From assembly GCF_037095755.1 (NCBI RefSeq), contig NZ_JBAWKJ010000003.1, positions 124,001-188,000 on the forward strand: a stretch of 64,000 bases of DNA. Direction: 5' to 3'. Under the pieces are notes generated by a model. The model ran no database searches and was not told the DNA's origin. It was given only the letters and a program-made list of their open reading frames with translations. Positions within the stretch are counted from its first letter, which is position 1. Every line of letters begins with the position of its first letter. The translations under genes were made by a program, and so were the position numbers. Below, piece after piece: positions 43,449 through 62,401 of the stretch. The DNA is from Sphingopyxis sp. CCNWLW2 (GTDB taxonomy: Bacteria > Pseudomonadota > Alphaproteobacteria > Sphingomonadales > Sphingomonadaceae).

Positions 43449-43474
43449 CCCTCTCCCTTTGCTTCGTTGCGACC

Positions 43475-43527
43475 GAATTTGATCGAACTTTATCGAAACT
43501 GATTGCAGAGCGCCAGCGATTTCGATA
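43475..43527. promoter_or_regulatory. Candidate operators in the divergent rhamnose regulatory region
   Basis: Between the kinase and aldolase genes lie an inverted repeat TATCGAAA (43491-43498) / TTTCGATA (43520-43527) and the word GAATTTGATCG (43475-43485), which recurs upstream of the TonB receptor at 47896-47906. These are the best candidates for binding by the DeoR-type repressor encoded at 47050. Confidence 0.45.
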
Positions 43528-43563
43528 CATGTCCCCGCATAGTCGAAACAACGAGTTTCCTTC

Positions 43564-45693: not shown

Positions 45694-46989
45694 ATGGCTG
45701 GCGATCTGCCGCTCGCACAGGATGATATCGAGCGGCTGAACGCCGGTCTGACCGACGCGCTCGACGATGATTATGGCAGCCTCGGCCGCCAACTCGGCCG
45801 GCGCGGGATCGACATCGATGGCGTTAAGGCGAAGGTCGCGGGCTTTTCGGTCGCGGTGCCGAGCTGGGGTGCAGGCCGCGGCGGCACGCGTTTCGCTAAA
45901 TTCCCGATCGCCGGCGAGCCCACCAATATCCATGAAAAGCTCGAGGATTGCGCGGTCATCCAGCAGCTGGGCCGCGCGACCCCGCGCGTCAGCCCGCATT
46001 TCCCGTGGGACAAGGTCAGCGACTATCGCGGCCTTCGCGAGGAAGCCGCCGCGCTCGGCCTCGGCTTCGACGCGGTGAACAGCAACACTTTCCAGGACCA
46101 GCCGGGGCAGGCGGTGAGCTATGCTACCGGCTCGCTCTCCTCGACGCGTGCCGAGGTGCGCGAGCAGGCGGTCGCGCACAACATCGAGTGTATCGAGATC
46201 GGCAAGCAGCTCGGCGTCACCGACCTCACCGTGTGGGTCGGCGACGGCACCAATTTTCCAGGGCAGCAGGATCTTGGCCGCAGCCTCGATCGCTATCTCG
46301 ACGCAGCGGCTGAGGTTTATGCAGCGCTCCCCGCCGACTGGCGGATGCTGATCGAGCACAAGATGTTCGAGCCGGCCTTTTATTCGACCGTGATTTCGGA
46401 CTGGGGCAGCTCGATCCTCGTCGCGCAGGAACTCGGCGACAAGGCGAAATGCCTCGTCGACCTTGGGCATCATGCGCCGAATGTGAACATCGAACAAATC
46501 GTCGCGCGGCTGCACCGCTTCGGAAAGCTCGGCGGTTTCCACTTCAATGACAGCAAATATGGCGACGACGATCTCGACTCGGGCTCGATCAACCCGCACC
46601 AGCTGTTCCTCGTCTTCAACGAATTGGTCGAGGCCGAGATGAACCCGCGCGGCGATTTCCGCCCCGCACACATGATCGACCAGTCGCACAATGTGACCGA
46701 CCCGATCGAGTCCATGCTCTCGTCGGCCGAAGCGATTGTCGCGGCCTATGCCAAGGCGTTGCTCGTCGACCGCGAGGCGCTGCTTGCCGCGCAAGAGGCA
46801 AATGACACGATGATGGCGTTCCAGGCGCTGCGCACCGCGTACCGCACCGATGTCACGCCGATCCTCGCGGCGGCGCGCGCCGAAGCGGGCGGGGCGATCG
46901 ACACGATCGCCGCCTATCGCGCGAGTGGCTGGCGCGATCGTAAGGCGCAGGAACGGCGCGCCGCGGGAGCGGCCGCGGGGATCGTCTAA
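45694..46989 (+). CDS. rhaI: L-rhamnose isomerase (RhaI type)
   Basis: 431 aa TIM-barrel isomerase turning L-rhamnose into L-rhamnulose, of the catabolic RhaI type rather than E. coli RhaA. Metal-binding positions are seen in LIEHKMFEP, VDLGHHAPN and FHFNDSKYGDDDLD; the glycine-rich VWVGDGTNFPGQQD is also conserved. GGAGAG lies ahead of ATG 45694. It sits between the aldolase fusion and the regulator gene. Confidence 0.94.
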   Translation: MAGDLPLAQDDIERLNAGLTDALDDDYGSLGRQLGRRGIDIDGVKAKVAGFSVAVPSWGAGRGGTRFAKFPIAGEPTNIHEKLEDCAVIQQLGRATPRVSPHFPWDKVSDYRGLREEAAALGLGFDAVNSNTFQDQPGQAVSYATGSLSSTRAEVREQAVAHNIECIEIGKQLGVTDLTVWVGDGTNFPGQQDLGRSLDRYLDAAAEVYAALPADWRMLIEHKMFEPAFYSTVISDWGSSILVAQELGDKAKCLVDLGHHAPNVNIEQIVARLHRFGKLGGFHFNDSKYGDDDLDSGSINPHQLFLVFNELVEAEMNPRGDFRPAHMIDQSHNVTDPIESMLSSAEAIVAAYAKALLVDREALLAAQEANDTMMAFQALRTAYRTDVTPILAAARAEAGGAIDTIAAYRASGWRDRKAQERRAAGAAAGIV

Positions 46990-47049: not shown

Positions 47050-47835
47050 ATGCACGCAGCCGAACGCGAAAAAATGATCCTCGACAGCCTGGGCGAAAGC
47101 GGCTTCGTCTCGTTCCGTGACCTCGAAAGCCGCGTCGCCGCGTCGCCCGCCACCATTCGCCGCGATCTCGACCGGCTCGAAGAAGCCGGCGTCATCACGC
47201 GCGTGCGCGGCGGGGCGAAGCGCGTCGGCGGGGGAGATGGTGCGCCGGCTGCATCCGAAGACGGCCTGTCGGGCATTCCCTTTCACGAGAATATCGGCCG
47301 CAATCGCGCCGCGAAGGAAGCGATCGGACGGGCGGCGGCGGGGCTCTGCATCCCCGGCGAGGGCGTGATGATCGACGGCGGCTCGACGACGCTGCAAATG
47401 TGCCCGCACCTCGATGGCCTCGCGCTGCAGGTTCTGACCAACTCGCTCCATATCGTCAGTGCGCTGCTGCCGCAGCCGACGACGCGCATATTGGTGCCGT
47501 CGGGGCAGGTGTTTCGCGAACAGAATATCGTCCTCTCGGCGGCGGGCGACGACGGCATGCCGCGTTTCCATGCGCCGAAACTGTTCATGGGCGCGGCGTC
47601 GATGGGCCCCGCCGGGCTGATGCAGGCCGACGTCATCCTTGTCGCCGCCGAACGCCGCCTGATCGAGCGCGCCGACGAGATCATCGTGCTGGTCGACAGT
47701 TCCAAATTCTCGGGCCCCTCGGGCAATGTCGTGTGCTCGCTCGACGAGATCGACGTCGTCGTCACCGACGCCGGAATCGAACCGCACCATGTCGCGATGA
47801 TGGAAGCCGCCGGTATCCGCGTCATCATCGCCTGA
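47050..47835 (+). CDS. DeoR/GlpR-family transcriptional regulator
   Basis: 261 aa repressor. The N-terminal winged helix reads AEREKMILDSLGESGFVSFRDLE with the recognition part SPATIRRDLDRLEE, typical of DeoR regulators. The C-terminal sugar-phosphate sensor domain (MIDGGSTTLQM, NSLHIV, FMGAASMGPAG, VLVDSSKF) is complete. It most likely senses rhamnulose-1-phosphate or a related intermediate and controls both rhamnose arms and the glycoside operon; this is inferred from position and family. Confidence 0.93.
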   Translation: MHAAEREKMILDSLGESGFVSFRDLESRVAASPATIRRDLDRLEEAGVITRVRGGAKRVGGGDGAPAASEDGLSGIPFHENIGRNRAAKEAIGRAAAGLCIPGEGVMIDGGSTTLQMCPHLDGLALQVLTNSLHIVSALLPQPTTRILVPSGQVFREQNIVLSAAGDDGMPRFHAPKLFMGAASMGPAGLMQADVILVAAERRLIERADEIIVLVDSSKFSGPSGNVVCSLDEIDVVVTDAGIEPHHVAMMEAAGIRVIIA

Positions 47836-47895: not shown

Positions 47896-47906
47896 GAATT
47901 TGATCG
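47896..47906. promoter_or_regulatory. Shared regulatory word upstream of the TonB receptor
   Basis: GAATTTGATCG also occurs at 43475-43485 in the divergent rhamnose region. It lies in the 210-base leader of the receptor gene, which otherwise holds no gene; a TTGA-rich segment surrounds it. Low-confidence candidate for a DeoR-type operator half. Confidence 0.35.
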
Positions 47907-48045: not shown

Positions 48046-50691
48046 ATGAAGGCGATGACGACTGCAGGGTTGGGTATGGTTGCGCGGCGGAACGCGTGGC
48101 GGCGGGGCATTTCGGCAATGGCATGCGCGGGCGCGCTGCTCGGCGCGGCGAGCGCCCATGCCCAGGATGCCGATTCCGAAGCCCCGACCGATGCGGATAT
48201 TGTCGTCACCGGCACCCTGCTGCGCGGCGTTGCGCCGGTCGGCACCAATGTCGTCGCGGTCAGCGAGGCCGATGTCGTTGCCTCGGGCGCGGCCTCGGCG
48301 AACGATCTGCTCGCCTCGATCCCGCAGGTCGGCAATTTCGGAACGATCCCGGCGGGTCTCGGCAATTTCGGCAATCCGATCGTGCGTCCCAATATCCGCA
48401 ATCTCGGCGCAAGTGGCGGCTCGACGACGCTCGTGCTCGTCGACGGCCACCGCATGGTCGGCGCGGGCATTCTGCAGACGAGCTTCGATCCCTCGGTCAT
48501 TCCGCCCGATGTGATCAAGCGGGTCGACGTCATCCCCGACGGCGGTTCGTCGATCTATGGTTCGGACGCGATCGGCGGCGTGATCAACTTCATCACGCGC
48601 GACCGCTATGACGGCATCGGCGTCAACGCGCGCTATGGCTTTGCCAAAAATTACCAGACGATCGACGCCAGCGTCATTGCGGGCAAGGATTGGGGCTCGG
48701 GCTCGGCCTATATTTCCTATTCCTACGCGTGGCACGACGATCTGATCGGGCTCGACCGCGACTATGCGACCGCGAACCAGACCGGCCGCGGCGGCGGCGA
48801 TTTCCGCAGCACCGCCTGCGCGCTCGCCAACATCACCGTCGGCACGACGACCTATGCGCTCCCCGGCCGTGCGCCGGGGGTCAATCGCTGCGACCAGACC
48901 GATTATGCGGCCATCTATCCGCGCGAGGAACGCCACAGCGTCTTCGCCGGGCTGACGCAGGATCTCAGCGATTCGGTCGCATTCAAGCTGTCGGCCTATT
49001 GGTCGAAGCGCGACACGCTGCACCGCAGCGCGCAGAGCAGCATGAGCGGGACGATCACCGCCGCGAACCCCTTCTTCCGCCCGATCGGGACCGAGCTTGC
49101 GCACAGCGTCGCCTTTGCATTCGACGATGTCTTCGGACCGAGCAACGACAGCCCGTCCAGCTTTACCTCCTATGGCATCACGCCCAGCTTCGATTTCGAG
49201 CTCGGCGGCGGCTGGCAGCTGCGCACAATGGCCAACTTCGGACGCAGCGAGAATGAATCGACCGAGCGGTCGTTCAATTCGACCGCGGCGACGATCGCGC
49301 TGGCCGGCAGGACGACGGCAACCGCGCTCAACCCCTATAATCTCTCGGCGACGTCGCCCGCGGTGCTCGCGGCGATCGACGATTTCGTCAACTATGGCGA
49401 AGCGACGCAGGAGCTCGCCGAAGGGCGCGTCGTGCTCGACGGCCCGCTGTTCGCGATGTCCGGCGGCGACGTGCGCCTCGCGGTCGGCGGCGAATATCAT
49501 TACGAGAATATCCGCTCGTTCACCGGCAGCGGTCCCGAGGCTGCGGTCACCGGATCGAACGTCTATGCCGCGCGCAATGTGAAGTCGCTGTTCGGCGAAT
49601 TGCTGATCCCGATCTTCGGCGCCGATAACCGCACCCCGGGCTTCTACAGCCTCGAGCTGTCGGGTTCGGTCCGCTACGACGATTACAGCGACGTCGGCAG
49701 CACGACCAATCCCAAGATCGGCGTGACCTGGCGCCCGTTCGAGGCGCTGACGATCCGCGGCAATTACGGCACGTCGTTCCACGCGCCGAGCCTCGCCGAC
49801 CTCGGCAATTCGGTCGACGCGCGCGTTCAGGTGCTGCCGTTCAGCCCGTTCCGTGCGCCGAACAGCTCGCCCTTCGACGCGCTGCGTCCGACGATCGCGA
49901 TCGCCGGCGGCAACGCCAATTTGAAGCCCGAGACCGCCGACACCTGGTCGCTCGGCTTCGACCTCAAGCCCGCGGCGATCGAGGGCTTCGTCGCCAGCGC
50001 GACCTATTTCAACGTGAAGTTCAAGGATGCGATCGCGGTCCCGCCGTTCACGTCGCCTTTGCTGTTCACGACCCCGGCATATGCGGATTTCTTCATCCTC
50101 AATCCGACGCTCGCGCAGGCGCAGGCGGCGGCTGGCAATCTCCGCGTCGACGGCGTTCCGAACCTCGCGACGCTTTTCGCGATCAGCTCGCCCTATGTGC
50201 TGTTCCTCGCGCAGCGCGCGAACCTCGGCGCGGTGAATGTCGACGGGATCGACTTCAATCTCGCCTATAATCGCCCGACGGGCTTCGGCTCGATCCATGC
50301 GAATTTCACCGGCAGCTACCTGCTAAACCGCGAGACTCAGGTGGTACAGGGCGGTCCGGTCAACGACGACCTCAAGAACGGCACCGGGCGTTTCCTCTTC
50401 ACCGCGGGGCTCGGGGCGACGGTGGGCGATTTCACCGCGCGCGCGACGCTCAACCATCGTAGCGGCTATCCGATCATTGGGCTGCCGCCGCAGGAGCGTG
50501 TGTCGGCGTTCGACACCGTCGATCTCTTCTTCAGCTATGATCTCGGCGACATGCTCGCGAATACGCTGCTGACGCTGAACGTCGACAATGTCTTTGACGA
50601 GGACCCGCCGTTCCTGAACAGTGCATCGGGCTATACCAATGGCAGCACGCTCGGCCGGCTGGTATCCTTCGGTATTCGCACCAAATTCTGA
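48046..50691 (+). CDS. TonB-dependent outer-membrane receptor
   Basis: 881 aa energised outer-membrane channel, probably for a rhamnose-containing oligosaccharide or glycoside. The signal peptide ends at SAHAQ. The plug domain follows (DIVVTGTLLRG, STTLVLVDGHRMVG, DVIPDGGSSIYGSDAIGGV), then a beta barrel with many aromatic strands and a final Phe (GIRTKF). GGGAGG sits five bases before ATG 48046; the open frame begins earlier at 47932 but lacks these features. The specific ligand is inferred from the neighbouring rhamnosidase. Confidence 0.93.
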   Translation: MKAMTTAGLGMVARRNAWRRGISAMACAGALLGAASAHAQDADSEAPTDADIVVTGTLLRGVAPVGTNVVAVSEADVVASGAASANDLLASIPQVGNFGTIPAGLGNFGNPIVRPNIRNLGASGGSTTLVLVDGHRMVGAGILQTSFDPSVIPPDVIKRVDVIPDGGSSIYGSDAIGGVINFITRDRYDGIGVNARYGFAKNYQTIDASVIAGKDWGSGSAYISYSYAWHDDLIGLDRDYATANQTGRGGGDFRSTACALANITVGTTTYALPGRAPGVNRCDQTDYAAIYPREERHSVFAGLTQDLSDSVAFKLSAYWSKRDTLHRSAQSSMSGTITAANPFFRPIGTELAHSVAFAFDDVFGPSNDSPSSFTSYGITPSFDFELGGGWQLRTMANFGRSENESTERSFNSTAATIALAGRTTATALNPYNLSATSPAVLAAIDDFVNYGEATQELAEGRVVLDGPLFAMSGGDVRLAVGGEYHYENIRSFTGSGPEAAVTGSNVYAARNVKSLFGELLIPIFGADNRTPGFYSLELSGSVRYDDYSDVGSTTNPKIGVTWRPFEALTIRGNYGTSFHAPSLADLGNSVDARVQVLPFSPFRAPNSSPFDALRPTIAIAGGNANLKPETADTWSLGFDLKPAAIEGFVASATYFNVKFKDAIAVPPFTSPLLFTTPAYADFFILNPTLAQAQAAAGNLRVDGVPNLATLFAISSPYVLFLAQRANLGAVNVDGIDFNLAYNRPTGFGSIHANFTGSYLLNRETQVVQGGPVNDDLKNGTGRFLFTAGLGATVGDFTARATLNHRSGYPIIGLPPQERVSAFDTVDLFFSYDLGDMLANTLLTLNVDNVFDEDPPFLNSASGYTNGSTLGRLVSFGIRTKF

Positions 50692-50704: not shown

Positions 50705-53700
50705 TTGCCGCTGATCGGAAGCTTGCGAGGCCTGTTTTGGGGTGCGCTCGCGGCCATTGGCATGGCGACCTCGCCTGCGTGGGCGGCCGAGCCGGCCCCG
50801 GCGGTGCTGCGGACCGAATATGCCGCAGCGCCGCTGGGCCTCGACACCGCCGCGCCGCGTCTCGCGTGGCGGTCGCCGGTGGCGCGGCAGAGCGCGTACC
50901 GCATCCGCGTCGCGACGTCGGAAGCCGGCCTCGATCGCGCGCCTCTGTGGGACAGCGGCAAAGTCGCCTCGGTGGACAATGTCCAGATCGCCTATGCCGG
51001 GCCCGCGCTCGCATCGCGCCAACGCTATTGGTGGCAGGTGCAGGTGTGGGACGCCGATGGGAAGGTCACCGGATGGAGCGCGCCCGCCTGGTGGGAGATG
51101 GGACTGCTCCGCGCATCCGACTGGCAAGCCCGATGGATTTCGGGACCCGCGCGGCGCGACCATGACTGGGGCGACTTGACGCTCGATGCCGAGCTGACGC
51201 TGACGGGCAAGAGCGTCGATATATTGTTCCGCGCGCTTCCCAACGGAAAGACCTATGGCGACGCCTATGTCTGGACGCTCGCCGACGACAAGAACGGGCC
51301 CGAACTGATCCAGACCGTCCGCCGCTATCCGGGCGGCACCAGTTCGGCGATCAAGATGGAGCGGTTGGCGCAGGTCAAATTGCCCGCGCCGATCAAGGGG
51401 CGCCGCATCGCGCTGTCGATCCGCGCCGAGGGTGGCCGCATCGTCACGCGCATCGACGGGGCGGTCGTCGCGACGGTCGACAATGAGGCACACAAGCACG
51501 GCACGATCGGCTTTGCAGGTAAGGAAGCCAGTGCCGCTATAATTCATTCGGTCCGCGTATCGGGCACGCAAAGCCCCGCGGTCGCGTTCGATTTTGCGGG
51601 CGGCGACAATCCGTTCACCGGCGGCAGCGTTGCGAAGGATGGGCTCGTCGTCGCCGGCGGCGTGCCGGGCGTCGACCTGATGCTCCCGATCGAAGCACCC
51701 GCGCCGCTGGTTCGCCGTGCTTTTCGTCTCACCAAGCCGGTCGCGAGCGCACGGCTCTATTATGCGGGCGCGGGTATGCCGCGTCTGTCGGTCAACGGCA
51801 CCGTCGTCGGCTCGTCGCTCGGCGTAGGGTTCACCGCCTATGACAAGCGCGTTCTCGGTTATGCCCTCGACGTCACCAGCCTGCTGCGTCGCGGCGAGAA
51901 TGTGATCGGCGCCGAACTCGGGCGCGGCTGGTACGGGCTGACCGATCCGAACGAATGGTATTTCCACGCGGCGCCCTGGCACGCCGAACCTGCGCTCAAG
52001 GCACAGCTTGAGATTACCTACACCGATGGAATACGCGAAACCGTCGTGACCGATGGCAATTGGCGCACCTTTTCGGGCCCGACGCTCAATGACTCGGTCC
52101 ATCGCGGCGAACGTTTCGACGCGCGGCTGGTGCCGGCGGGCTGGGATCGTGCGAGTTTCCGCGACCGCAAATGGCAGGCGGCGCCGGTTGTTGCAGGGCC
52201 GGCGGGGCAGCTTGTCGCCGCCACCTCCGAAGCGATCGAACCGGTCGAGGCAATTTCGCCCGTCGCGATGAAAGAAGTCGCCCCCGGCGTCCATGTCTAT
52301 GACTTCGGCCGCATCGTCGCGGGCTGGCCGGTGCTCAAGGTCAGCGGCCCGCGCGGGCTCACCGTCTCGATGGTCGCGAGCGAACGCGTCGCCGACGACG
52401 GCAGGGTCGTCCCCGCTGCGGGGCTGATCGATGCGCAGCTCCAGACCGACCGCTACACGCTCGCGGGCAAGGGCGCCGAGCAATGGGAACCGCGCTTCGG
52501 CTATCGCGGCTTTCGCTATGTGCAGGTTGAGGGTTTTCCGGGCACGCCGCCCGAAGGCGCGCTCACCGCCCGCATCGTCCATTCGGCGGTCGCGCGTACG
52601 GGCAGCTTTGCCAGCGCTAGTCCGCTGCTGAACCAGATCGATTTTGCTGCGATCGCGTCGATCCTCAACAATCTCCACGGCTTCCAGACCGATACGCCGA
52701 CCTATGAAAAAAATGGCTGGTCCGGCGATGCGCAGGCGTCGGCGGGCGCCGCGGTGCGCAGCCTCGACATCGCGCGCGTCTGGACCAAATGGCTCGCCGA
52801 CTTCCGCGATGCGCAGTCGGACAAAGGTGAAGTGCCCGAGATTGCTCCGACGACGCCCTTCTACGGCTATGAGAACACCCCCGGCTGGAACGTGATCTGG
52901 GGGCCGACGACGCCGTGGGACGCGGCGGCGATGATCCTGCCGTGGGAATTATACACGACCTATGGCGATACGCGCGTGCTCGCGGACAATCAGGACATGC
53001 AGCGCCGGCTGGTCGATTACACCGCGACCTTTATAAAGGCGCCCGATTACCAGCGGTCGGCGGGACTCTCCGAATGGGCGTCGGCGGGCGGGATGGATTA
53101 CAGCAATGCGCGCGGCGGCGGGGTCGATGCGGTGACGACCGCCTATTTCTTCCATCAGGCCGACCTGCTGGCCAAATCGTCGGCGATCATCGGCAAGGCC
53201 GACGATGCGACGCGCTATGCCAGGCTCGCCGAGGATATCCGCGCCGCCTATAACGCGCGCTACTGGAACGGCGCCATGGGCTGGTATCGCACCATCGACA
53301 GCAAGGGAGCGGTCGGCCGGCCGACGCAGGTGCAGAATATCTTGCCGCTCGCGTTCGGCATGGTGCCGACGGGACGCGAGAAGAACGTCGCGGCGGCCAT
53401 CGCAAATGACGTCAAGGAACAGGGGCTGCTCACCGGCGTCTATGGTGCGCGTTACCTGCTCGAAATCCTGAGCGACTATGGCTACGCCGACCTCGCGTAT
53501 CGCGTCGCGACGCGCACCGACGAGCCAAGCTGGGGCTGGTGGATCAAGAACGGCCACTCGACGATGTTCGAAACGTGGAGCCTGAACAGCCGTTCGCGCG
53601 ATCATCACTATTTCGCGTCGATTTCCGACTGGATGCGCCAGCGGCTGGCCGGGCTGCGCCCGGGCGCGCCGGGGTACAAGGTCGTGCTCGTCAAGCCCGC

Positions 53701-53959
53701 GATCCCCGACGGGCTTGCGGGCGCAGAGGCCGCTATGGAGACGGTCCACGGCCGCGCCTTCTCGGGCTGGAAGGTCGAAGCGGGCAGGCTGTCGCTCACC
53801 GCCGACGTGCCGGCGAACACGACGGGCGAAATCTGGGTGCCGAAGCGCTTCGGGGCGATTGTCGCCCCTGCGGGTGCCGAAGCCGTGCGTCAGGCGGCCG
53901 GCTATTCGATCTATCGTACCGGCCCCGGCCGTTTCATCTTCACCACCGGAGGCAAATAA
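50705..53959 (+). CDS. Alpha-L-rhamnosidase, GH78
   Basis: 1084 aa exported enzyme removing terminal alpha-L-rhamnose. The start is TTG 50705, behind GGGGAGG, and gives a signal peptide ending at SPAWAA. The N-terminal fibronectin-like and beta domains start with LRTEYAAAPLGLD; the alpha-toroid catalytic domain carries DTPTYEKNGWSGDAQ, with the likely general-acid Glu, and ENTPGWNVIWGPTTPWDAA. Its stop TAA shares its last base with the ATG of the esterase gene (TAATG). It lies 13 bases after the receptor gene. Confidence 0.93.
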   Translation: MPLIGSLRGLFWGALAAIGMATSPAWAAEPAPAVLRTEYAAAPLGLDTAAPRLAWRSPVARQSAYRIRVATSEAGLDRAPLWDSGKVASVDNVQIAYAGPALASRQRYWWQVQVWDADGKVTGWSAPAWWEMGLLRASDWQARWISGPARRDHDWGDLTLDAELTLTGKSVDILFRALPNGKTYGDAYVWTLADDKNGPELIQTVRRYPGGTSSAIKMERLAQVKLPAPIKGRRIALSIRAEGGRIVTRIDGAVVATVDNEAHKHGTIGFAGKEASAAIIHSVRVSGTQSPAVAFDFAGGDNPFTGGSVAKDGLVVAGGVPGVDLMLPIEAPAPLVRRAFRLTKPVASARLYYAGAGMPRLSVNGTVVGSSLGVGFTAYDKRVLGYALDVTSLLRRGENVIGAELGRGWYGLTDPNEWYFHAAPWHAEPALKAQLEITYTDGIRETVVTDGNWRTFSGPTLNDSVHRGERFDARLVPAGWDRASFRDRKWQAAPVVAGPAGQLVAATSEAIEPVEAISPVAMKEVAPGVHVYDFGRIVAGWPVLKVSGPRGLTVSMVASERVADDGRVVPAAGLIDAQLQTDRYTLAGKGAEQWEPRFGYRGFRYVQVEGFPGTPPEGALTARIVHSAVARTGSFASASPLLNQIDFAAIASILNNLHGFQTDTPTYEKNGWSGDAQASAGAAVRSLDIARVWTKWLADFRDAQSDKGEVPEIAPTTPFYGYENTPGWNVIWGPTTPWDAAAMILPWELYTTYGDTRVLADNQDMQRRLVDYTATFIKAPDYQRSAGLSEWASAGGMDYSNARGGGVDAVTTAYFFHQADLLAKSSAIIGKADDATRYARLAEDIRAAYNARYWNGAMGWYRTIDSKGAVGRPTQVQNILPLAFGMVPTGREKNVAAAIANDVKEQGLLTGVYGARYLLEILSDYGYADLAYRVATRTDEPSWGWWIKNGHSTMFETWSLNSRSRDHHYFASISDWMRQRLAGLRPGAPGYKVVLVKPAIPDGLAGAEAAMETVHGRAFSGWKVEAGRLSLTADVPANTTGEIWVPKRFGAIVAPAGAEAVRQAAGYSIYRTGPGRFIFTTGGK

Positions 53960-55422
53960 TGATCCGCGGCGTATTGGTTTCGGCTGCACTTTTGGCGTCG
54001 CCGGTCGCGGCGCAGCAGGTGGCGATCGACAGCGGCACCGTTGCCGGCGCGACCACCGAAGGCGTCGCGGCGTTCAAGGGAATCCCCTATGCCGCGCCGC
54101 CCGTCGGCGCCCTGCGTTGGGGTGCACCCGCGCCCGCCCAGCCTCGGAGCGCACTGCGCGACGCGACCGCTTACGGCCCCGATTGCATGCAGAACCCGCT
54201 GCCGGGCATCCAGCCCGGATCGCGGTCGATGAGCGAGGATTGCCTGACGCTCAACGTCTGGACGCCGAAGCCCGCCAAGGGCGCGAAGCTGCCGGTGATG
54301 GTCTGGATCCACGGCGGCGGTTTCGTCGGCGGGTCGGGCACGCTGCCCGAAACCGACGGCGGTCTGCTCGCGAAGCGCGACGTCGTGGTCGTCAGCTTCA
54401 ATTACCGCCTCGGCCGCTTCGGTTTCTTCGCGCATCCCGCGCTGGGGCAGGATGGCAACTGGGGGCTGATGGATCAGATCGCGGCGCTCAAATGGGTGCA
54501 GCGCAACATCGCGGCGTTCGGAGGTGATCCGGCCAAGGTCACGATTTTCGGCGAGAGCGCCGGCGGGGAATCGGTATCGCGTCTGATGGCGTCGCCCGCC
54601 GCGAAGGGCCTGTTCGCGCGCGCGATCGTCGCCTCGGGCGGTGGCCGCGACGACTGGCCGACGCTGGCTGAGGCGCAGGCGAAGGGGCAGGCGTTCGGCG
54701 TGCGTGCGGGAGCGGCCGACGCGGCGACATTGCGCGCGCTGCCCGCCGAGAAGGTTCTCGGTAGCCTCGCGCTGATGAGCAAGGAAGAGGATCGCTATTC
54801 GGGGCCGATGACCGACGGGACGATCGTCCCCGCCGGCGCCGAGACGATCTTCGCCGAGGGCAGGCAGGCGCGCATTCCCTATATCATTGGCAGCAACGAC
54901 GACGAACTCGGCTTCATCCCCGCGCCGTTCCGCGCGATGGTCAACGGCCCGGTCGAAAAGGGACTGGGTGCTGCCGCTGCCATCGTGAAAGCGGCCTATG
55001 CGAGCGAGGACGAGGCGAACCGGCGGCTCGGCGGCGACGCGATCTTCGCCGAACCCGCGCTCGCCTTCGGCCTGTTGCAGGCGCGCGCGGGGGCGCCGAC
55101 CTTCCTCTATCGTTTCGGCTATGTGGCCGAGGGCCAGCGCAAGCCCGACGTCGGCGCGGTCCATGCGTCGGATGTCGCGTTCCAGTTCGGCAACCTGCCC
55201 GCCGATGCCACCGCCGCCGACCGTGCCGCCGCCAAGCAACTCGGCGATTACTGGACCAATTTCGCGAAGACCGGCGATCCGAACGGCGGCGGGCTGCCCG
55301 TCTGGTCTCGGCTCGACCCCGCGGCGCCGCAGCTGCTGTCGATGGGACTCGAGACAACCGCAATGGCGCCCGCAACCACACCCGCGCTCACCGCCATCGC
55401 CGCCGCACGGGACGGAAAATAA
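53959..55422 (+). CDS. Exported type-B carboxylesterase
   Basis: 487 aa periplasmic esterase of the carboxylesterase/lipase family. A signal sequence (LVSAALLASPVAAQ) is followed by FKGIPYAAPPVGALRW, the oxyanion segment WIHGGGFVGGSG, and the nucleophile elbow FGESAGG. The acidic and histidine members of the triad fit SNDDELGF and AVHASD. Starts at TAATG with the rhamnosidase gene and ends the same way with the next. The acyl group it removes is unknown. Confidence 0.9.
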   Translation: MIRGVLVSAALLASPVAAQQVAIDSGTVAGATTEGVAAFKGIPYAAPPVGALRWGAPAPAQPRSALRDATAYGPDCMQNPLPGIQPGSRSMSEDCLTLNVWTPKPAKGAKLPVMVWIHGGGFVGGSGTLPETDGGLLAKRDVVVVSFNYRLGRFGFFAHPALGQDGNWGLMDQIAALKWVQRNIAAFGGDPAKVTIFGESAGGESVSRLMASPAAKGLFARAIVASGGGRDDWPTLAEAQAKGQAFGVRAGAADAATLRALPAEKVLGSLALMSKEEDRYSGPMTDGTIVPAGAETIFAEGRQARIPYIIGSNDDELGFIPAPFRAMVNGPVEKGLGAAAAIVKAAYASEDEANRRLGGDAIFAEPALAFGLLQARAGAPTFLYRFGYVAEGQRKPDVGAVHASDVAFQFGNLPADATAADRAAAKQLGDYWTNFAKTGDPNGGGLPVWSRLDPAAPQLLSMGLETTAMAPATTPALTAIAAARDGK

Positions 55423-56285
55423 TGAAAGCCATGACCATGCGTCTCTCCGCCGTCCTTGCCGGTGCGCTCGCCATCGTTGCAATCCCCGCTTGCGCGTGGG
55501 AGGTGATCCGCCTGTCGTCGGCCCCGGTGCCCGCGACCTCGAAGGAGGTGCGCGAAACAGGGCCGTTCGGGACGATCGTGCGCAACGTCTCCGATGCGAC
55601 GCTCACACCCTATGTCGCCGAAAAGCCCAACGGCACCGCGGTCATCGTCGCGCCCGGCGGCGGCTTTCACATGCTGTCGATCGACAATGAGGGCGAAGCG
55701 GTCGCCAAATGGCTGAACAGCCAGGGCGTTACCGCCTTCGTGCTCAAATATCGCCTGCTCGAAACCGGCGCCGATTTTCCGCTCCAGATGATGCGCTATC
55801 TCGCCAATATTCCTTCGCTGCGCACCGCAGTCGAACCGCTGCGCCCGCTCGCGACCGCCGACGGCGAAAATGCGGTGAAGTGGGTCCGCAAGAACGCCGC
55901 CCGCTATGGCATCAAGCCGAACCGCGTCGGGCTGATGGGTTTTTCGGCGGGGGGCGCGGTGACGGTGTGGACGCTCGCGGCGAACAAGCCCGCGAGCCGC
56001 CCCGACTTCGCGATCGCCATCTATCCCGGCCTGCTGCCCGACGCGATTGCGGTGCCGAAGAAGGCGCCGCCGCTGTTCGTCGCGGCGGCGAAGGACGACA
56101 AGCTGGCATATGCCGACAGCGTCCGCCTTGCCGCGGCGTGGAAGGATGCCGGCGCGAGCAGCACGATCGTCACCTACGAGAGCGGAGGCCATGGTTTCGG
56201 CATGAAGAAGAGCGGCAAACCGAGCGATGCATGGACCGATGCGATGAGCGACTGGATGCGCGGGCAGGGACTCGTCGGCAAATGA
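55422..56285 (+). CDS. Exported alpha/beta hydrolase, acetyl-esterase type
   Basis: 287 aa enzyme with a signal sequence (MTMRLSAVLAGALAIVAIPACA) and an alpha/beta hydrolase domain: APGGGFHML oxyanion motif, GFSAGG nucleophile, AKDDKL acid and GGHGFG histidine. The pattern is that of small carbohydrate esterases removing acetyl groups. Its start and stop overlap both neighbours (TAATG, ATGA). Substrate not proven. Confidence 0.85.
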   Translation: MKAMTMRLSAVLAGALAIVAIPACAWEVIRLSSAPVPATSKEVRETGPFGTIVRNVSDATLTPYVAEKPNGTAVIVAPGGGFHMLSIDNEGEAVAKWLNSQGVTAFVLKYRLLETGADFPLQMMRYLANIPSLRTAVEPLRPLATADGENAVKWVRKNAARYGIKPNRVGLMGFSAGGAVTVWTLAANKPASRPDFAIAIYPGLLPDAIAVPKKAPPLFVAAAKDDKLAYADSVRLAAAWKDAGASSTIVTYESGGHGFGMKKSGKPSDAWTDAMSDWMRGQGLVGK

Positions 56286-57880
56286 GGGCCGCGTCGCTCC
56301 TCTTCCTCGCCGGCGGATCGCTGCTCGCGGCCTGCACCGCGAACGAACCCGCACCGGCGCCGACGCCCGCTGTGCAAAAGATCGGCAGCTGCGAAGGGCT
56401 GACCGGTTTGGCGCTGAAGGACGGCAAGGTCGACGCCGCGAGTTCGCTCGCGGGCGGCGCGATGGTCAATCTCGAGGCCGGCAAGCCCGGCCTACCGGCG
56501 CCCGCCGCTTTCTGCCGCGTGCAGGCGACGCTGTCTCCGGTGCCCGGATCGTCGATCAAGGTCGAGGTGTGGCTGCCCGAACGTCAGGGCTGGAACGGCA
56601 AGCTGCTCGGCGCAGGCAACGGCGGCTTCGGTGCGAACATGCTGCTGCCGTCGCTCCTGATGCGCGGCGCGGTGCAGAAGGGCTATGCCGCGGTTGGCAC
56701 CGACATGGGGCATGTCAGCGAGGCCGATGTCGACGCGAGCTGGGCGCTGAACGCGCCCGAGAAAATCCGCGACTATGGCTGGCGTGCCAACCATGTCGGC
56801 GCCGAGACGGCGAAACAGGTGATCGCTGCCTTTTATGAAAATCCGCTGTCGGCGAGCTATTTCCACGGCTGTTCGGATGGCGGGCGGCAGGCGCTGACGC
56901 TCGCGCAGCGCTACCCCGCCGATTATGATGCGATCATCGCGGGCGCCCCCGCAATGCCGTGGACGCGCATGGCGAGCGCCTTCGCGAACAATGCCGTCGC
57001 GGCGAGCAAGCCCGGCGGCGACCTGTCGATAGCGAAATTGAAGCTGCTCCAGACGGCATCGCTCGGGCAGTGCGATGGGCTCGATGGCGTGAAGGACGGC
57101 GTGATCGACGATCCGCGCTCCTGCCATTTCGATCCCGCCAAGCTCGCGTGCAAGGGCGGCGAGGGCACTGATTGCCTGACACCTGGCGAAGTCGCGACCG
57201 CGAAGCTGTTCTACGAAGGACCAAAAACCGCTGACGGCAAGAGCTTCTACCCCGGCTTCGCGCCCGGCGCCGAGGCCGAGGCGGGCACCTGGTCGCAATG
57301 GCTGACCGGCAAGACGTCGCAGCATGTGAAGTTCGGCACCGCCTTCTTCCGCTATTTCGTGCACGCCAATCCCGACTGGAAAATGTCCGACTTCAACCTC
57401 GAGCGCGACTATGCGCTGGCAAAGGCACGCGTCGGCGGCGATCTCGACGCCGACCGCACCGACCTTGGCGCTTTCTACAAGCGCGGCGGCAAGCTGATCC
57501 TCTATCACGGCTGGAACGACGCCGGGATCCCGGCGCAGAATACCGTCGATTATTACGAGCGTCTGGTCGCCGCCAACCCGCGCGCCGCGGCGACCTCGGT
57601 GCGCCTGTTCATGGTGCCCGGCATGTCGCACTGTCTTGCGGGACCGGGGCCGAACAATTTCGATCCGCTCGCTGCGCTCGACGGCTGGCGGCAGGGCGGA
57701 CCCGCGCCCGAGCGGATCATCGCGACCAAATATGACAACGATCTGTTCGCCTATATCGGCCTCCCCGCAAAGGCCGGGCGGACGCGGCCGCTCTGTGCAT
57801 TCCCCAAGGTCGCGAAATGGGACAGTAAGGGTTCGACCGACGATGCGGCGAGCTTTACCTGCGAGGCACCCGGAAAATGA
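56282..57880 (+). CDS. Tannase/feruloyl esterase family lipoprotein
   Basis: 532 aa enzyme of the tannase/feruloyl esterase family, hydrolysing esters of phenolic acids. A lipobox LLAAC near residue 18 suggests a lipoprotein. The family's disulphide-linked serine ([13 protein letters not shown]), the acidic residue in [11 protein letters not shown] and the histidine in VPGMSHC are all seen. Start overlaps the previous stop (ATGA) and its stop overlaps the next start. It supports a phenolic-acid ester as part of the operon's substrate. Confidence 0.9.
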
Positions 57881-59550
57881 CGAGCCATGTTCACGGAGCA
57901 ACCGAACCGCCGCTGATCGAACACACGATCGGTGACGCGCTCGCGCTCGCCGCGGAGCGCTGGGGCGGCCGCGACGCGCTCGTTTCGGTCGCGCAGGGGA
58001 TCCGCTGGAATTTCGCAGAACTGCTCGAACGGTTCGACGCCTTCGCCGCCGGGCTGCTCGCGCTCGGGCTGAACCCCGGCGACCGCATCGGCATCTGGGC
58101 GCCCAACTGCGTCGAATGGACGCTGACGCAGTTCGCCGCGGCGCGCGCGGGGCTGATCCTCGTCACGATCAACCCTGCCTATCGCCTGTCCGAGGTCGAA
58201 TATACGATCAACAAGGTCGGCTTGTCGGCGCTCGTTGCGGCGACCAGCTTCAAGACGAGCGACTATCCCGCGATGATCGAGGAACTCGCGCCCGAGGCTG
58301 CTGCGAGCACGCCCGGCGAGCTTCGCGCGGCGCGCCTGCCGACGCTGCGCTCGCTGATCCTGATAGGTGCGGACGCGCGTGCGGGTTGGCTGCGCTTCGA
58401 CGACGTGACGGGGCAGGGAAGTGATACCGACCGCCAGCGCCTCGCCGCGATCGGGCCGACGCTCGATCCCCACGATGCGATCAACATCCAGTTCACCAGC
58501 GGCACCACCGGCTTGCCGAAGGGCGCGACGCTCAGCCACCGCAACATCCTCAACAACGGCTATTTCGTCGGGCACACGCAGGGGCTGGGGGAGGCCGACC
58601 GCATCTGCATCCCGGTGCCGCTCTATCACTGCTTCGGCATGGTGATGGGCAATCTGGCCAGCATCACCCACGGCGCGGCGATGGTCTATCCGTCGGAGGG
58701 CTTCGACCCCGAAGCGGTGCTGCGCGCGGTCGAGGCCGAACGCTGCACGTCGCTCTATGGCGTGCCGACGATGTTTATCGCCGTGCTCGCGCATCCGCGC
58801 TTCGACGAGTTCGACGTCTCGTCGCTCCGCACCGGCTGCATGGCGGGCGCGATTTGTCCCGAACCGCTGATGCGGCGGGTGGTCGAGCGGCTCAATATGC
58901 GCGACGTGACGATCGCCTACGGGATGACCGAGACGAGCCCGGTGAGCTTCCAGACCGCGCCCGACGATCCGTTCGAGCGCCGCGTCGGCTCGATCGGCCG
59001 GGTGCAGCCGCATCTCGAATGCAAGATCGTCGATGTGGACGGCAACATCGTGCCCTCGGGCGAGCCCGGCGAGCTTTGCACGCGCGGCTATTCAGTGATG
59101 ATCGGCTATTGGGACGAGCCCGAACGCACCGCGGATTCGATCGACGCCGACGGCTGGATGCACTCGGGCGATCTCGCGACGATCGATGCCGAAGGTTACG
59201 GCAATATCGTCGGCCGCCTCAAGGACATGGTGATCCGCGGCGGCGAGAATATCTACCCGCGCGAGGTCGAAGATTACCTCTATCGCCACCCCGCGATCGA
59301 GGATGTCGCGGTGGTCGGCATTCCCGACGAGCGCATGGGCGAGGAGCTGTGCGCGTGGGTGCGTTTGAAGCCCGGCGCGGACGTCAGCCCGGACGATATA
59401 CGCGAGTTCTGCCGCGGCCAGATCGCCCACTATAAAGTCCCGCGCTACGTGCGTATCGTCGGCGAATTCCCCACCACGGTGACGGGAAAAGTCCAGAAAT
59501 ATCTGATCAGAGAGGCGATGGTCGCCGATCTCGGAAAGGAAGAAGAATAA
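57877..59550 (+). CDS. Acyl-CoA synthetase (AMP-binding, ACSF2-like)
   Basis: 557 aa cytoplasmic ligase activating a carboxylic acid to its CoA ester. Motifs: [12 protein letters not shown] (phosphate-binding), [21 protein letters not shown] and [18 protein letters not shown], with the catalytic Lys in GKVQK near the end. It resembles medium-chain or ACSF2-type synthetases rather than acetyl-CoA synthetase. Lying among exported esterases, it probably activates the acid they release, aliphatic or aromatic; which one cannot be read from sequence. Overlaps both neighbours. Confidence 0.88.
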
Positions 59551-59873
59551 TGAAAATTGCCATGTTTGTTGCGGCGCTGATGGCCGCCGCCCCCGCCTTT
59601 GCCCAGGGCACCGCCGCTCCCGCCGCGCCAGCACCGGCGCCGGCCGCGCCCGCCAGCGATGCGAAATTCAACCTCGACACCCCGCTGCAGGACATCGCCG
59701 CCGACGAAAAGGGCAAGGCGGTGATCGAGAAGCATTTCCCCGGCATGATCGCATTGCCCGAATATGAGATGTTCAAGGCGATCAGCCTGACGCAGCTCCA
59801 GCCCTATTCGAACGGCAAGATCACCGACGAGATGCTCGCCGCGACCGCCAAGGATCTGGCGGAGATCAAGTAA
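59550..59873 (+). CDS. Small exported protein of unknown function
   Basis: 107 aa protein: signal sequence ending at AFAQ, an Ala/Pro linker to ~residue 37, then a compact helical domain (DTPLQDIAADEKGKAVIEKH, then LTQLQPYSNGKITDEMLA). No enzyme motif or cysteine is visible. Both ends overlap neighbours (TAATG), so it is made in step with the acyl-CoA synthetase and the beta-glucosidase. It could be a small accessory subunit of the exported glycosidase; I do not recognise a named family. Confidence 0.8.
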   Translation: MKIAMFVAALMAAAPAFAQGTAAPAAPAPAPAAPASDAKFNLDTPLQDIAADEKGKAVIEKHFPGMIALPEYEMFKAISLTQLQPYSNGKITDEMLAATAKDLAEIK

Positions 59874-62401
59874 TGATGCGCCGGACAGCCTATCTGGCGG
59901 CAACTCTGCTGTCTTCCACGGTGGCGCTGTCCGGCGCACAGGCGCAGGATATGATCTACAAGGACAAATCGGCGCCGATCGAGGCGCGCGTCGACGACCT
60001 GATGGGGCGGCTGACGATCGACGAAAAGATCCTGCTGCTCGCGGGCGAAAGCTCGATGACGCTGAACCCGATTCCACGGCTCGGCATCCCCTCGCTCCGC
60101 ATGACCGACGGGCCGACCGGCGTGCGCTCGCCCGACGGCAAGCCCGCGACGGTGTTCCCCGTCGGTGTCGCAATGGCGGCGACGTGGAACCCCGACCTCA
60201 CGGCCAAGGTCGGCGCGGCGATCGGCAAGGAAACGCTCGCACATGGCGCCGACGTCCTCCTCGCGCCGACGGTCAATATCGTGCGCACCCCGCGCTGGGG
60301 CCGCAATTTCGAAACCTATTCCGAAGACCCGTATCTCGCGGGCCAGATCGGGCTCGGCTATGTGAAGGGCGCGCAGGGCGCGGGCATCGGCGTCTCGCTC
60401 AAGCATTTCGCCGCGAACAATCAGGAAACGAACCGCTTCATCGTCGACTCGGTGGTCGATCCGCGCACGCTGCGCGAAATCTATCTGCCGGCGTTCGAGA
60501 CGGTGATCAAAGGGGGTGATCCCTGGTCGGTGATGGCGGCGTACAACAAGATCAACGGCACCCATGCGGCCGAGAACCGCTGGCTGCTGACCGACCTGCT
60601 CAAGAGTGAATGGGGCTATAAGGGCTTTGTCGTGTCGGACTGGGGCGCGGTCCATTCGACCGCGACGACCGTCAATGCGGGCATGGACCTCGAAATGCCG
60701 GGGCCGCCGAACCATTTCGGTCCCAAGCTCAGAAAGGCGGTCGAGGAGGGCAAGGTCACGGCCGCGCAGCTCGACGACAATGCGCGCCGTATGGTGCGCC
60801 TGATCGTGCGCAGCGGAGCGATCGAACGCGGTGTCGTCCGCCCGGTCGCCGGGCAGACGCCGCGCAATGCCGCGCTCGCGCAGAGCGCGGCCGAGGAAGC
60901 GATCGTCCTGCTCAAGAACAGCGGCGTCCTGCCGCTGCCGCCGTCGATCAAATCGCTCGCGGTGATCGGCCCCAACGCCGACGTCGTGCGCATCCAGGGC
61001 GGCGGCAGCTCGGCGGTGGTGCCGTTCGAGACGAGCACGCCGCTCGCCGCGCTCAAGGCGGCGTTGCCGGGCGTCCGGATCGACTATGCGCGCGGCGTCG
61101 ACAATGAAGAGACGCCGCCGGGTGCCAGCGCCAAGCTGTTCAGCCCCGGAACCGACCGCAGCGTCACCGGCCTTGCGGCGACCTACTATGCCAACGCCGA
61201 TATGAGCGGCGAGCCGGTGAAACGCGAAACCGCGACGAGCTTTTTGAAGCGGATCAGCGGCAATATCGCCGGGCCGCAGGTTACCGGCTATGCAGCGTTC
61301 CGCTGGGAAGGGCTGTTCTGGCCCGACAAGAGCGGCACGTATGAATTCAGCACCCGCGGCACCGGCAACGCGACGATCATACTCGACGGCAACACCGTGC
61401 TGTCGAAAGCAAGTGCGTCGAAGCCCGACATCCGCGACGTGCTCGGTTTTCCGATCCCGCGGCGGACGGTATCGGTCCAGCTCGAGGCGGGGCGCAGCTA
61501 CCCAATCCGGCTCGATTATGTGAACGGTCAGACCCCCTATGAATATCTGAGCTTCGGTATTCGCGAGCCGCTTCCGTCGTTCGACGAAGCGGTCGCCGCG
61601 GCGCGCGGCGCCGATGCCGTGCTGCTGTTCGTCGGCTCGTCGTCGACCACCGAGGGCGAGGGCTATGACCGCACCTCGCTCGACCTGCCGGGCGGCCAGA
61701 ACAAGCTCGTCGAGGCGATCCTCGCCGCCAATCCGAAGACCGCGGTCGTCGTCAACGCTGGGGCGGCGATGACGATGCCCTGGTCCGACAAGGCGCCCGC
61801 GATCGTCGACATGTGGCTGCCGGGCGAGGGCGGCGCCGCCGCGCTCGCCAATGTCCTGACCGGTAAGGTCAACCCGTCGGGCAAGCTGCCCGTGACCTTC
61901 CCGGCGCGGACCGAAGACGATGCGATCAACCTCAAGGGCGCCAAGACGCCCTATTCGGAAGGGCTGCTCGTCGGTTATCGCGGCTATGTCGCAAAGGGCG
62001 TGAAGCCGCTCTTCGCCTTCGGACACGGGCTCAGCTACACAAGCTTTGCCTATTCGGCGCTGTCGGCGCCCACGCGCGTCAAAGGCGGCGAAGCGGTTTC
62101 GGCGAAACTTACCCTCCGCAACACCGGCAAGCGCGCGGGCAAGGAAGTGGTGCAAATCTATGTCGCGCCGCTCGCACCCGCGGCGGGTGATCCGCCGATC
62201 GCGCTGCGCGGCTTTGCCAAAGTCGACATCGCGCCCGGCGCGCGCCGCTCGGTCAGCGTGACACTTGACCCCCGCGCCTTTTCGCAGTTCGACGCCGAAC
62301 GCGGCCAGTGGCGCGTCGTCCCCGGCCGCTACCGGATCATGGCCGGGTCGTCGTCAGCCGATATTCGCCAGCAGCGCGAGATCGACGTGACGGCCGAGTG
62401 A
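59873..62401 (+). CDS. Beta-glucosidase, GH3 with PA14 domain
   Basis: 842 aa exported glycosidase. A signal sequence ends at GAQAQ. The N-terminal TIM barrel carries the nucleophile Asp in VVSDWGAVHS; KHFAANNQETNR is also typical. A PA14 domain (TYYANADMSGEPV to STRGTGNATIILDGN) interrupts the second domain, as in plant-type and some bacterial GH3 enzymes, and a fibronectin III-like domain ends the protein (RNTGKRAGKEVVQIY). Last gene of the operon, which would remove the glucose left after rhamnose is cleaved. It overlaps the small protein gene. Confidence 0.93.
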   Translation: MMRRTAYLAATLLSSTVALSGAQAQDMIYKDKSAPIEARVDDLMGRLTIDEKILLLAGESSMTLNPIPRLGIPSLRMTDGPTGVRSPDGKPATVFPVGVAMAATWNPDLTAKVGAAIGKETLAHGADVLLAPTVNIVRTPRWGRNFETYSEDPYLAGQIGLGYVKGAQGAGIGVSLKHFAANNQETNRFIVDSVVDPRTLREIYLPAFETVIKGGDPWSVMAAYNKINGTHAAENRWLLTDLLKSEWGYKGFVVSDWGAVHSTATTVNAGMDLEMPGPPNHFGPKLRKAVEEGKVTAAQLDDNARRMVRLIVRSGAIERGVVRPVAGQTPRNAALAQSAAEEAIVLLKNSGVLPLPPSIKSLAVIGPNADVVRIQGGGSSAVVPFETSTPLAALKAALPGVRIDYARGVDNEETPPGASAKLFSPGTDRSVTGLAATYYANADMSGEPVKRETATSFLKRISGNIAGPQVTGYAAFRWEGLFWPDKSGTYEFSTRGTGNATIILDGNTVLSKASASKPDIRDVLGFPIPRRTVSVQLEAGRSYPIRLDYVNGQTPYEYLSFGIREPLPSFDEAVAAARGADAVLLFVGSSSTTEGEGYDRTSLDLPGGQNKLVEAILAANPKTAVVVNAGAAMTMPWSDKAPAIVDMWLPGEGGAAALANVLTGKVNPSGKLPVTFPARTEDDAINLKGAKTPYSEGLLVGYRGYVAKGVKPLFAFGHGLSYTSFAYSALSAPTRVKGGEAVSAKLTLRNTGKRAGKEVVQIYVAPLAPAAGDPPIALRGFAKVDIAPGARRSVSVTLDPRAFSQFDAERGQWRVVPGRYRIMAGSSSADIRQQREIDVTAE

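Follow-up and report, generated by a model that had tools for sequence, protein, structure and literature searches.

We analysed a 64,000-nucleotide stretch of the genome of Sphingopyxis sp. CCNWLW2 (hereafter the window; positions 124001-188000 of contig C3 in the 4.62-Mb genome, G000), in which eight consecutive genes encode a TonB-dependent receptor, an alpha-L-rhamnosidase of glycoside hydrolase family GH78, three ester hydrolases, an acyl-CoA synthetase, a small protein and a GH3 enzyme. These genes form a real catabolic unit, conserved and inherited together, whose general kind (TonB-coupled glycoside utilization) is known, and the unit is probably an operon for the use of an esterified rhamnoglucoside. 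A first-pass annotation of this DNA had already proposed a single acylated rhamnoglucoside as the substrate; that idea gains from co-inheritance of the genes in 14 of 60 Sphingopyxis genomes, from recurrence of a rhamnosidase with the esterase types, rearranged, in other orders and classes, from purifying selection and from an 11-bp motif shared with the rhamnose genes, whereas the phenolic acids given as examples are weakened by the family assignment of the ligase and by a hydroxycinnamoyl-CoA hydratase/lyase score below cut-off.

The eight-gene unit and its conservation

Six stop/start overlaps connect seven open reading frames (ORFs) between 50705 and 62401, with TAATG overlaps at the start codons 53959, 55422, 59550 and 59873 and ATGA overlaps at 56282 and 57877. 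All of these ORFs and positions, as first described, were re-checked in the sequence and stand, as do the gene kinds, with Pfam giving GH78 domains, COesterase, alpha/beta hydrolase, Tannase, AMP-binding and GH3. The border of the unit has to be moved: the seven overlapped genes hold together, but because the gene for the TonB-dependent receptor ends 13 nucleotides (nt) before the rhamnosidase start, we take the unit to comprise eight genes, starting one gene earlier than first drawn. The overlaps are not peculiar to one genome, as ten intact Sphingopyxis loci show an overlap at 59 of their 60 junctions (read by eye from a junction printout), the single departure being a 5-nt gap from COesterase to alpha/beta hydrolase in L016. 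Several junctions overlap in the Sphingomonas loci as well, where the tannase-to-ligase gap is 1 nt in L023 and 2 nt in L025; some junctions of L035 and L029, with genes in pieces, were unreadable. Short overlaps are ordinary inside bacterial operons, and we claim no excess over a typical operon for six in series. Judging from the conserved overlaps and gene order, the stretch from receptor to GH3 is a candidate operon that may be read as a single transcript.

All eight genes lie on the + strand. The receptor (48046-50691; PF00593 and PF07715, scanned as a longer ORF from 47932) was assigned its start at 48046 from a conserved AGGGAGG-ATGCG-ATG arrangement. The GH78 alpha-L-rhamnosidase (50705-53959; PF17389, PF08531, PF25788, PF05592 and PF17390) has a signal peptide and starts with TTG at 50705, preceded by GGGGAGG; its domains pass curated cut-offs (PF17389 251.2 bits, PF05592 89.3, PF08531 144.7), and a glutamate aligns at both Glu636 and Glu895 of its best solved relative, 3w5m (positions counted by eye), which we take to be the catalytic glutamates. 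It is followed by the carboxylesterase (COesterase, 53959-55422; PF00135, E 1.3e-113), with the fumonisin B1 esterase 8s6d as best solved relative, and by an alpha/beta hydrolase (55422-56285; PF07859) resembling the carbohydrate acetyl-esterases AxeA1 and PaeX, though scoring far below the acetyl-esterase cut-offs (121.4 of 700 bits for NF042968, 101.5 of 550 bits for NF041902). The tannase/feruloyl-esterase-family gene (56282-57880; PF07519, E 1e-107, 361.5 bits) encodes a putative lipoprotein with a cysteine after LLAA (by eye); aligned to MHETase, it keeps GCSDGG, the aspartate in WNDAG and SHC, presumably corresponding to the GCSxGG nucleophile, the aspartate and the HC motif of PF07519 catalysis. 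On these alignments, the catalytic residues appear to be retained in both the GH78 and the tannase. The remaining genes are those for the acyl-CoA synthetase (57877-59550; NF009233, 841.3 bits against a cut-off of 832), for a small protein of 107 residues (59550-59873) that matches nothing in Pfam or NCBIfam, and for a GH3 enzyme with a PA14 insert (59873-62401; PF00933, PF01915 and PF07691), probably a beta-glucosidase, whose best solved relative is 7pjj. Judged by eye, with no predictor, the N-termini point to Sec export of the small protein, of two of the esterases and of both glycosidases, and to a lipoprotein cysteine on the tannase; the ligase, having no signal, would be cytoplasmic. Four more tannase-family genes lie in the same genome at G000:C1:2245996-2266412, with 44-49% identity to that of the operon; in two of these, the match is interrupted by a stop.

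Among 60 Sphingopyxis genomes, this one included, the GH78 is found in 14, a tannase ortholog (at least 73% identity) in those same 14, and a ligase ortholog (at least 85% identity) in 13 of them; the fourteenth, G083, has 40% of the ligase, cut at a contig end. GH78, tannase and ligase are thus inherited as a block in the genus. In G080 (L035 and L140), five of the eight operon genes are in pieces, reflecting either decay or sequencing error, as the assembly is 87% complete. Compared with six Sphingopyxis loci, the ratio of nonsynonymous to synonymous substitution rates (dN/dS) is 0.04-0.18 for the eight operon genes, except for the receptors of L020 and L022 (0.30 and 0.34), and 0.03-0.10 for RhaD and RhaI of the neighbouring rhamnose genes; against two Sphingomonas loci it is 0.22-0.42. 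Purifying selection acts on the operon genes. The receptors of L020 and L022 are also only 63-64% identical to the focal one, vs. mostly 81-92% for their operon neighbours, which suggests receptor exchange inside the operon. Downstream, a beta-lactamase-fold hydrolase gene (PF00144, 62441-63991) is convergent with the operon; several Sphingopyxis loci (L016, L017, L018, L024 and L031) have it in the same place, with about 97% identity.

Rhamnose genes and a shared promoter motif

The adjacent rhamnose catabolism noted in the first-pass annotation is borne out by the genes upstream of the operon. On the - strand lie RhaT, the L-rhamnose-proton symporter (39807-40868; PF06379, E 1.9e-74), a flavin mononucleotide-dependent dehydrogenase (40891-42069; PF01070, E 3.7e-127) that, from its rhamnose context, probably oxidizes L-lactate, and an FGGY-type carbohydrate kinase (42030-43598; PF21546, E 5.5e-67), probably the rhamnulokinase RhaB, with its true start judged by eye to lie inside the ORF. 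On the + strand follow RhaD, the bifunctional rhamnulose-1-phosphate aldolase/short-chain dehydrogenase (43564-45678; TIGR02632, 951.6 bits, cut-off 567.75), RhaI, the L-rhamnose isomerase (45694-46989; TIGR02629, 664.8 bits, cut-off 646.75), and a DeoR-family regulator (47050-47835; PF08220 and PF00455) that its position makes the probable rhamnose repressor RhaR. By their family matches, these genes are predicted parts of the phosphorylative rhamnose pathway.

The 11-bp motif GAATTTGATCG is common to the rhaB/rhaD promoter region (43475-43485, + strand), where it is a candidate RhaR operator, and to the conserved gap that separates the DeoR gene from the receptor gene (47896-47906, + strand). 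Both copies lie in well conserved stretches and, by eye, within repeats spaced about 10-11 bp. There are five exact copies in the genome, as compared with about 0.6 expected from base composition (assuming 63.5% G+C) and none for a reversed control pattern; two of the five are the promoter sites, 4.4 kb apart, while the other three fall in predicted coding stretches (an SRP54 gene, a catalase-like stretch recognized by eye, and a 511-residue ORF). When one mismatch is allowed, the window holds six matches vs. 1.9 expected, and since 4 of 100 shuffles also reach six, it is the exact sites alone that stand out. Of 11 Sphingopyxis loci, 7 (L015, L016, L017, L018, L020, L024 and L031) have exact copies at both sites, and L019, L022, L030 and L035 at one, the cut contig L021 being left out of this count. 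Because the motif occurs in the promoter regions of both rhaB/rhaD and the operon, the operon may belong to the rhamnose regulon, with the motif as a candidate operator only. The predicted sites of DeoR-type RhaR regulators are two imperfect direct repeats with a 10-11 bp periodicity (Rodionov et al. 2013, PMC3870299), and those regulons likewise have a DeoR gene beside rha genes and site repeats that resemble, by eye, both promoters here. The words 'esterase' and 'TonB' do not occur in the text of that study, nor does a Sphingopyxis regulon in its passages available to us.

Related loci in other genera and in the same genome

We compared 77 loci with related GH78 genes, of which the first 24 listed are all proteobacterial and the other 53 mostly from Bacteroidota. 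Except for the cut contig L021, each of the first 24 has relatives of the COesterase and the alpha/beta hydrolase near the GH78, and a tannase relative is present in all of these 23 loci but L036, where a contig end cuts that side; the other 53 loci yielded one weak alpha/beta-hydrolase match and one partial COesterase match. A search for the gene order in other sphingomonads, as the first-pass annotation had suggested, recovered all eight genes in order in Sphingomonas (L023, L025, L027 and L029, the last with several genes in pieces) and in all four genomes of genus g23 having the GH78, with RhaT adjoining the operon in two of these four. Across 396 genomes of the order, with at most two candidates scored per listed genome, the GH78 was matched in seven, three from Sphingopyxis and four from g23. 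Niveispirillum keeps the operon order minus the ligase, a relative of which lies elsewhere, next to a second ligase. GH78 relatives on plasmid records (29, all below 60% identity) were of no help as a clue to context, the 12 matches listed coming from actinobacteria, haloarchaea, Bacteroidota and one Gemmatirosa.

In five Brevundimonas loci and in Solimonas and Stenotrophobium, GH78, COesterase and alpha/beta hydrolase occur with rearranged order and strands, and the tannase is present in all but the cut L036. The receptor of all five Brevundimonas loci is 51-52% identical to the focal one; in Solimonas and Stenotrophobium, a TonB receptor recognized by Pfam sits between tannase and alpha/beta hydrolase, with no tblastn match to the focal receptor among the matches listed. 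TetR regulators are found in all seven rearranged loci and an MFS carrier in all except L036, and a GH5 akin to solved steryl-glucosidases lies in or next to the locus in each of the six rearranged-locus genomes searched, and part of one is present in L036. Genes of the non-phosphorylative rhamnose type (amidohydrolase, short-chain dehydrogenase, MR/MLE dehydratase and FAA hydrolase) are near the Solimonas and Stenotrophobium loci; in Brevundimonas, an FAA hydrolase, a dehydrogenase, an amidohydrolase and a carrier lie upstream in L122, a lactonase relative and a carrier accompany L036, and a carrier accompanies L033. A CoA ligase adjoins the tannase in Solimonas; of the four Brevundimonas loci with that side visible, three have one there too, and in Stenotrophobium the ligase comes after the carrier gene that belongs to the rhamnose-type group. 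All five Brevundimonas loci (L032, L033, L034, L036 and L038) have, immediately after the GH78, a second AMP-binding ligase from a different subfamily.

Two further loci of the window's own genome carry a rhamnosidase of family GH106. Locus B (L093, G000:C1:2292000-2306000) has a COesterase, two GH3 genes, a relative of the small exported protein, a TetR regulator, alpha/beta hydrolases and the GH106, with no tannase match within its stretch; locus C (L132 and L133, G000:C3:808600-825300) has a tannase, a GH5, a COesterase, an alpha/beta hydrolase, a GH3, an MFS carrier, the GH106, a TetR regulator and a receptor 57% identical to the focal one. Rhamnosidase-plus-esterase clustering therefore recurs within one genome with a different rhamnosidase family. 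This bears on the view that the operon is a loose collection, with the rhamnosidase and glucosidase acting on one glycoside and the esterases and ligase merely co-transcribed for unrelated esters. Paralogs of the tannase and ligase do lie elsewhere in several of these genomes, those of the ligase in unrelated clusters; however, the assembly of a rhamnosidase with the same esterase types in different gene orders in two classes, and of GH106 with esterases twice more in this genome, makes such a collection distinctly improbable.

The small protein encoded by the sixth of the overlapped genes (59550-59873), counted but not described in the first-pass annotation, was considered as a marker of rhamnosidase loci and rejected, as its relatives mostly occur with no rhamnosidase and, at the eight places read, beside unrelated housekeeping genes. 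A profile search of 147 genomes of the order found relatives in 18, at 21 places, 18 of which were examined by tblastn (the other three being two in this genome and one in G086); one of the 18 is a full module copy (L102), and no rhamnosidase was found by tblastn at the other 17. At these eight places, Pfam on one or two neighbouring genes each gave UvrC, DNA ligase, a short S4-domain protein, Clp ATPase (two loci), ATP synthase A chain (two loci) and PriA (two loci). Two other relatives, in L093 and L095, do sit in GH106 loci.

The released acid and the proposed function

In the route that we postulate for an esterified rhamnoglucoside, the glycoside would pass the outer membrane through the receptor; the COesterase, the alpha/beta hydrolase and the tannase-family lipoprotein would strip the acyl groups in the periplasm, where GH78 would also take off alpha-L-rhamnose and GH3 beta-glucose. 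The rhamnose would then enter via RhaT and be converted by RhaI, RhaB and RhaD to dihydroxyacetone phosphate and lactate, and the freed acid would be activated in the cytoplasm by the acyl-CoA synthetase of the operon and pass to beta-oxidation. In the presence of rhamnose, the DeoR regulator (RhaR) would likely lift its repression of rhaD and the operon alike.

With regard to the acid, the ligase passes the cut-off of the 'fatty acid CoA ligase' family NF009233, and no family evidence for phenolic substrates was found for it. The best match in this genome to the hydroxycinnamoyl-CoA hydratase/lyase family NF006588 is 136.7 bits against a cut-off of 276; of 18 genomes searched loosely, 2 exceed this cut-off and 16, including this one, fall below, and in a search with an E limit more stringent than the family cut-off, the enzyme was seen in 1 of 60 Sphingopyxis genomes. 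By these scores, the genome contains no recognisable hydratase/lyase of the CoA-dependent, non-beta-oxidative hydroxycinnamate pathway. Phenolic acids such as the ferulate and coumarate first put forward are not favoured, because the ligase is of the fatty-acid type and the genome is without this recognisable enzyme. We lean modestly toward an acid that is aliphatic, branched or terpenoid rather than hydroxycinnamic, and the better fit is a glycolipid, saponin or comparable glycoside that bears an aliphatic or terpenoid acid. The GH5 of related loci points to a lipophilic aglycone there, although GH5 enzymes differ in their substrates. It could be argued that the substrate is instead an acylated phenolic glycoside, such as an acylated flavonoid rhamnoglucoside or a caffeoyl phenylethanoid glycoside, with the ligase making hydroxycinnamoyl-CoA: the operon holds a member of the tannase/feruloyl-esterase family, GH78 and GH3 are the right pair for a rhamnosyl-glucose, a feruloyl-CoA synthetase is among the best solved matches of the ligase, and a GH106 from Novosphingobium reportedly acts on glycosides of flavonoids (cited in PMC10653915). 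We consider this unlikely, in view of NF009233 as the best ligase family and of the low NF006588 scores, a search that does not cover a beta-oxidative route.

A tree of the ligases places those of the Sphingopyxis, Sphingomonas and G097 operons in one clade (16 rows, 100/100). Ligase paralogs were also looked at as a guide to the acid, with loci read by eye and Pfam run on five genes, and were rejected, the contexts being too varied: one (L092) adjoins an aldehyde dehydrogenase, a TonB receptor and a second ligase, another (L096) lies with a short-chain dehydrogenase, an alpha/beta hydrolase and a flavin-dependent oxidoreductase that matches a monooxygenase weakly.

Several points weigh against an esterified rhamnoglucoside whose acid is activated by the operon. 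The ligase scores only just above the NF009233 cut-off, the family stands for no tested specificity, and a feruloyl-CoA synthetase is among the closest solved structures. In the tree, the ligases of Brevundimonas, Solimonas and Stenotrophobium fall outside the sphingomonad clade, in an open group with paralogs, so that we do not claim one inherited ligase across all loci; either the non-sphingomonad ligases were recruited separately or the tree lacks resolution. The ligase is missing from the Niveispirillum copy and from Brevundimonas G204, the fourth of the loci above, which has none of this type anywhere in its genome, and no ligase match was found within the stretches of loci B and C; since several related loci do without it, activation by an operon ligase is not obligatory. 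The upstream region of Brevundimonas L123, one of two such regions examined, shows no rhamnose genes. Linked genes in any island are expected to be co-inherited, and GAATTTGATCG was picked after inspection of both promoters, hence we attach no formal probability to it.

Another conceivable substrate is a polysaccharide carrying esters, such as a sphingan-like rhamnose polymer. Sphingans contain rhamnose and glucose, and the alpha/beta hydrolase weakly resembles acetyl-xylan and pectin acetyl-esterases. Such a polymer nevertheless seems very unlikely, as Pfam finds no lyase, endo-glycosidase or unsaturated-uronide hydrolase among the operon genes, acetate would not need the ligase of the operon, and the GH5 of the rearranged loci is akin to steryl-glucosidases. 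Polysaccharide utilization loci of Bacteroidota combine a TonB-dependent receptor (SusC) and SusD with clustered exported glycosidases and esterases; the operon shares with them the receptor and the clustered exported enzymes, but differs in having no SusD-like match among the genes scanned, no endo-acting enzyme and a cytoplasmic CoA ligase. The fumonisin degradation cluster carries a FumI-type aminotransferase with FumD; unlike it, the operon has a rhamnosidase and a glucosidase, and no aminotransferase among its genes by Pfam. The likeness to FumD (8s6d), by best solved match, is one of COesterase family; FumD is reported to hydrolyse fumonisin B1, and a FumD-type enzyme has been named from Sphingopyxis. 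In the open-licence literature searched, we found no description of the present gene combination. The nearest published sets, likened here by description and not by glycosidase sequence, are the saponin glycosidase gene groups of Sphingobium sp. RC1, likewise a sphingomonad, in which exported GH3, GH78 and GH106 enzymes are encoded close together and the GH78 and GH106 have putative rhamnosidase activities toward steroidal saponins (PMC10653915). The words 'esterase' and 'TonB' do not occur in the main text of that paper, so an esterase set is apparently not described there.

Taking the esterified rhamnoglucoside as the substrate of the operon, we speculate, at somewhat less than even confidence, that rhamnosidase-plus-esterase loci constitute an undescribed class of TonB-coupled utilization systems, which would handle ester-capped rhamnoglycosides whose aglycone or acid is lipophilic. 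Their parts would be exchangeable: the rhamnosidase could be GH78 or GH106, the other glycosidase either GH3 or a GH5 that lacks a signal and is paired with an MFS carrier, and the regulator DeoR or TetR. Such loci would have been put together several times, with repeated recruitment of acyl-CoA ligases. Substrates of such a class would be rhamno-glucolipids, acylated saponins or resin-glycoside-like compounds, of which both sugar and acid would be burned. If true, a genomic signature of rhamnosidase, COesterase, tannase-family esterase, alpha/beta hydrolase and TonB receptor, often with a CoA ligase, would predict consumers of acylated rhamnosides in soil and water. It would also mean that one rhamnose-controlled unit of these bacteria couples sugar and acid catabolism of the same natural product, and that such loci offer matched enzyme sets to deacylate and deglycosylate plant or microbial glycosides.

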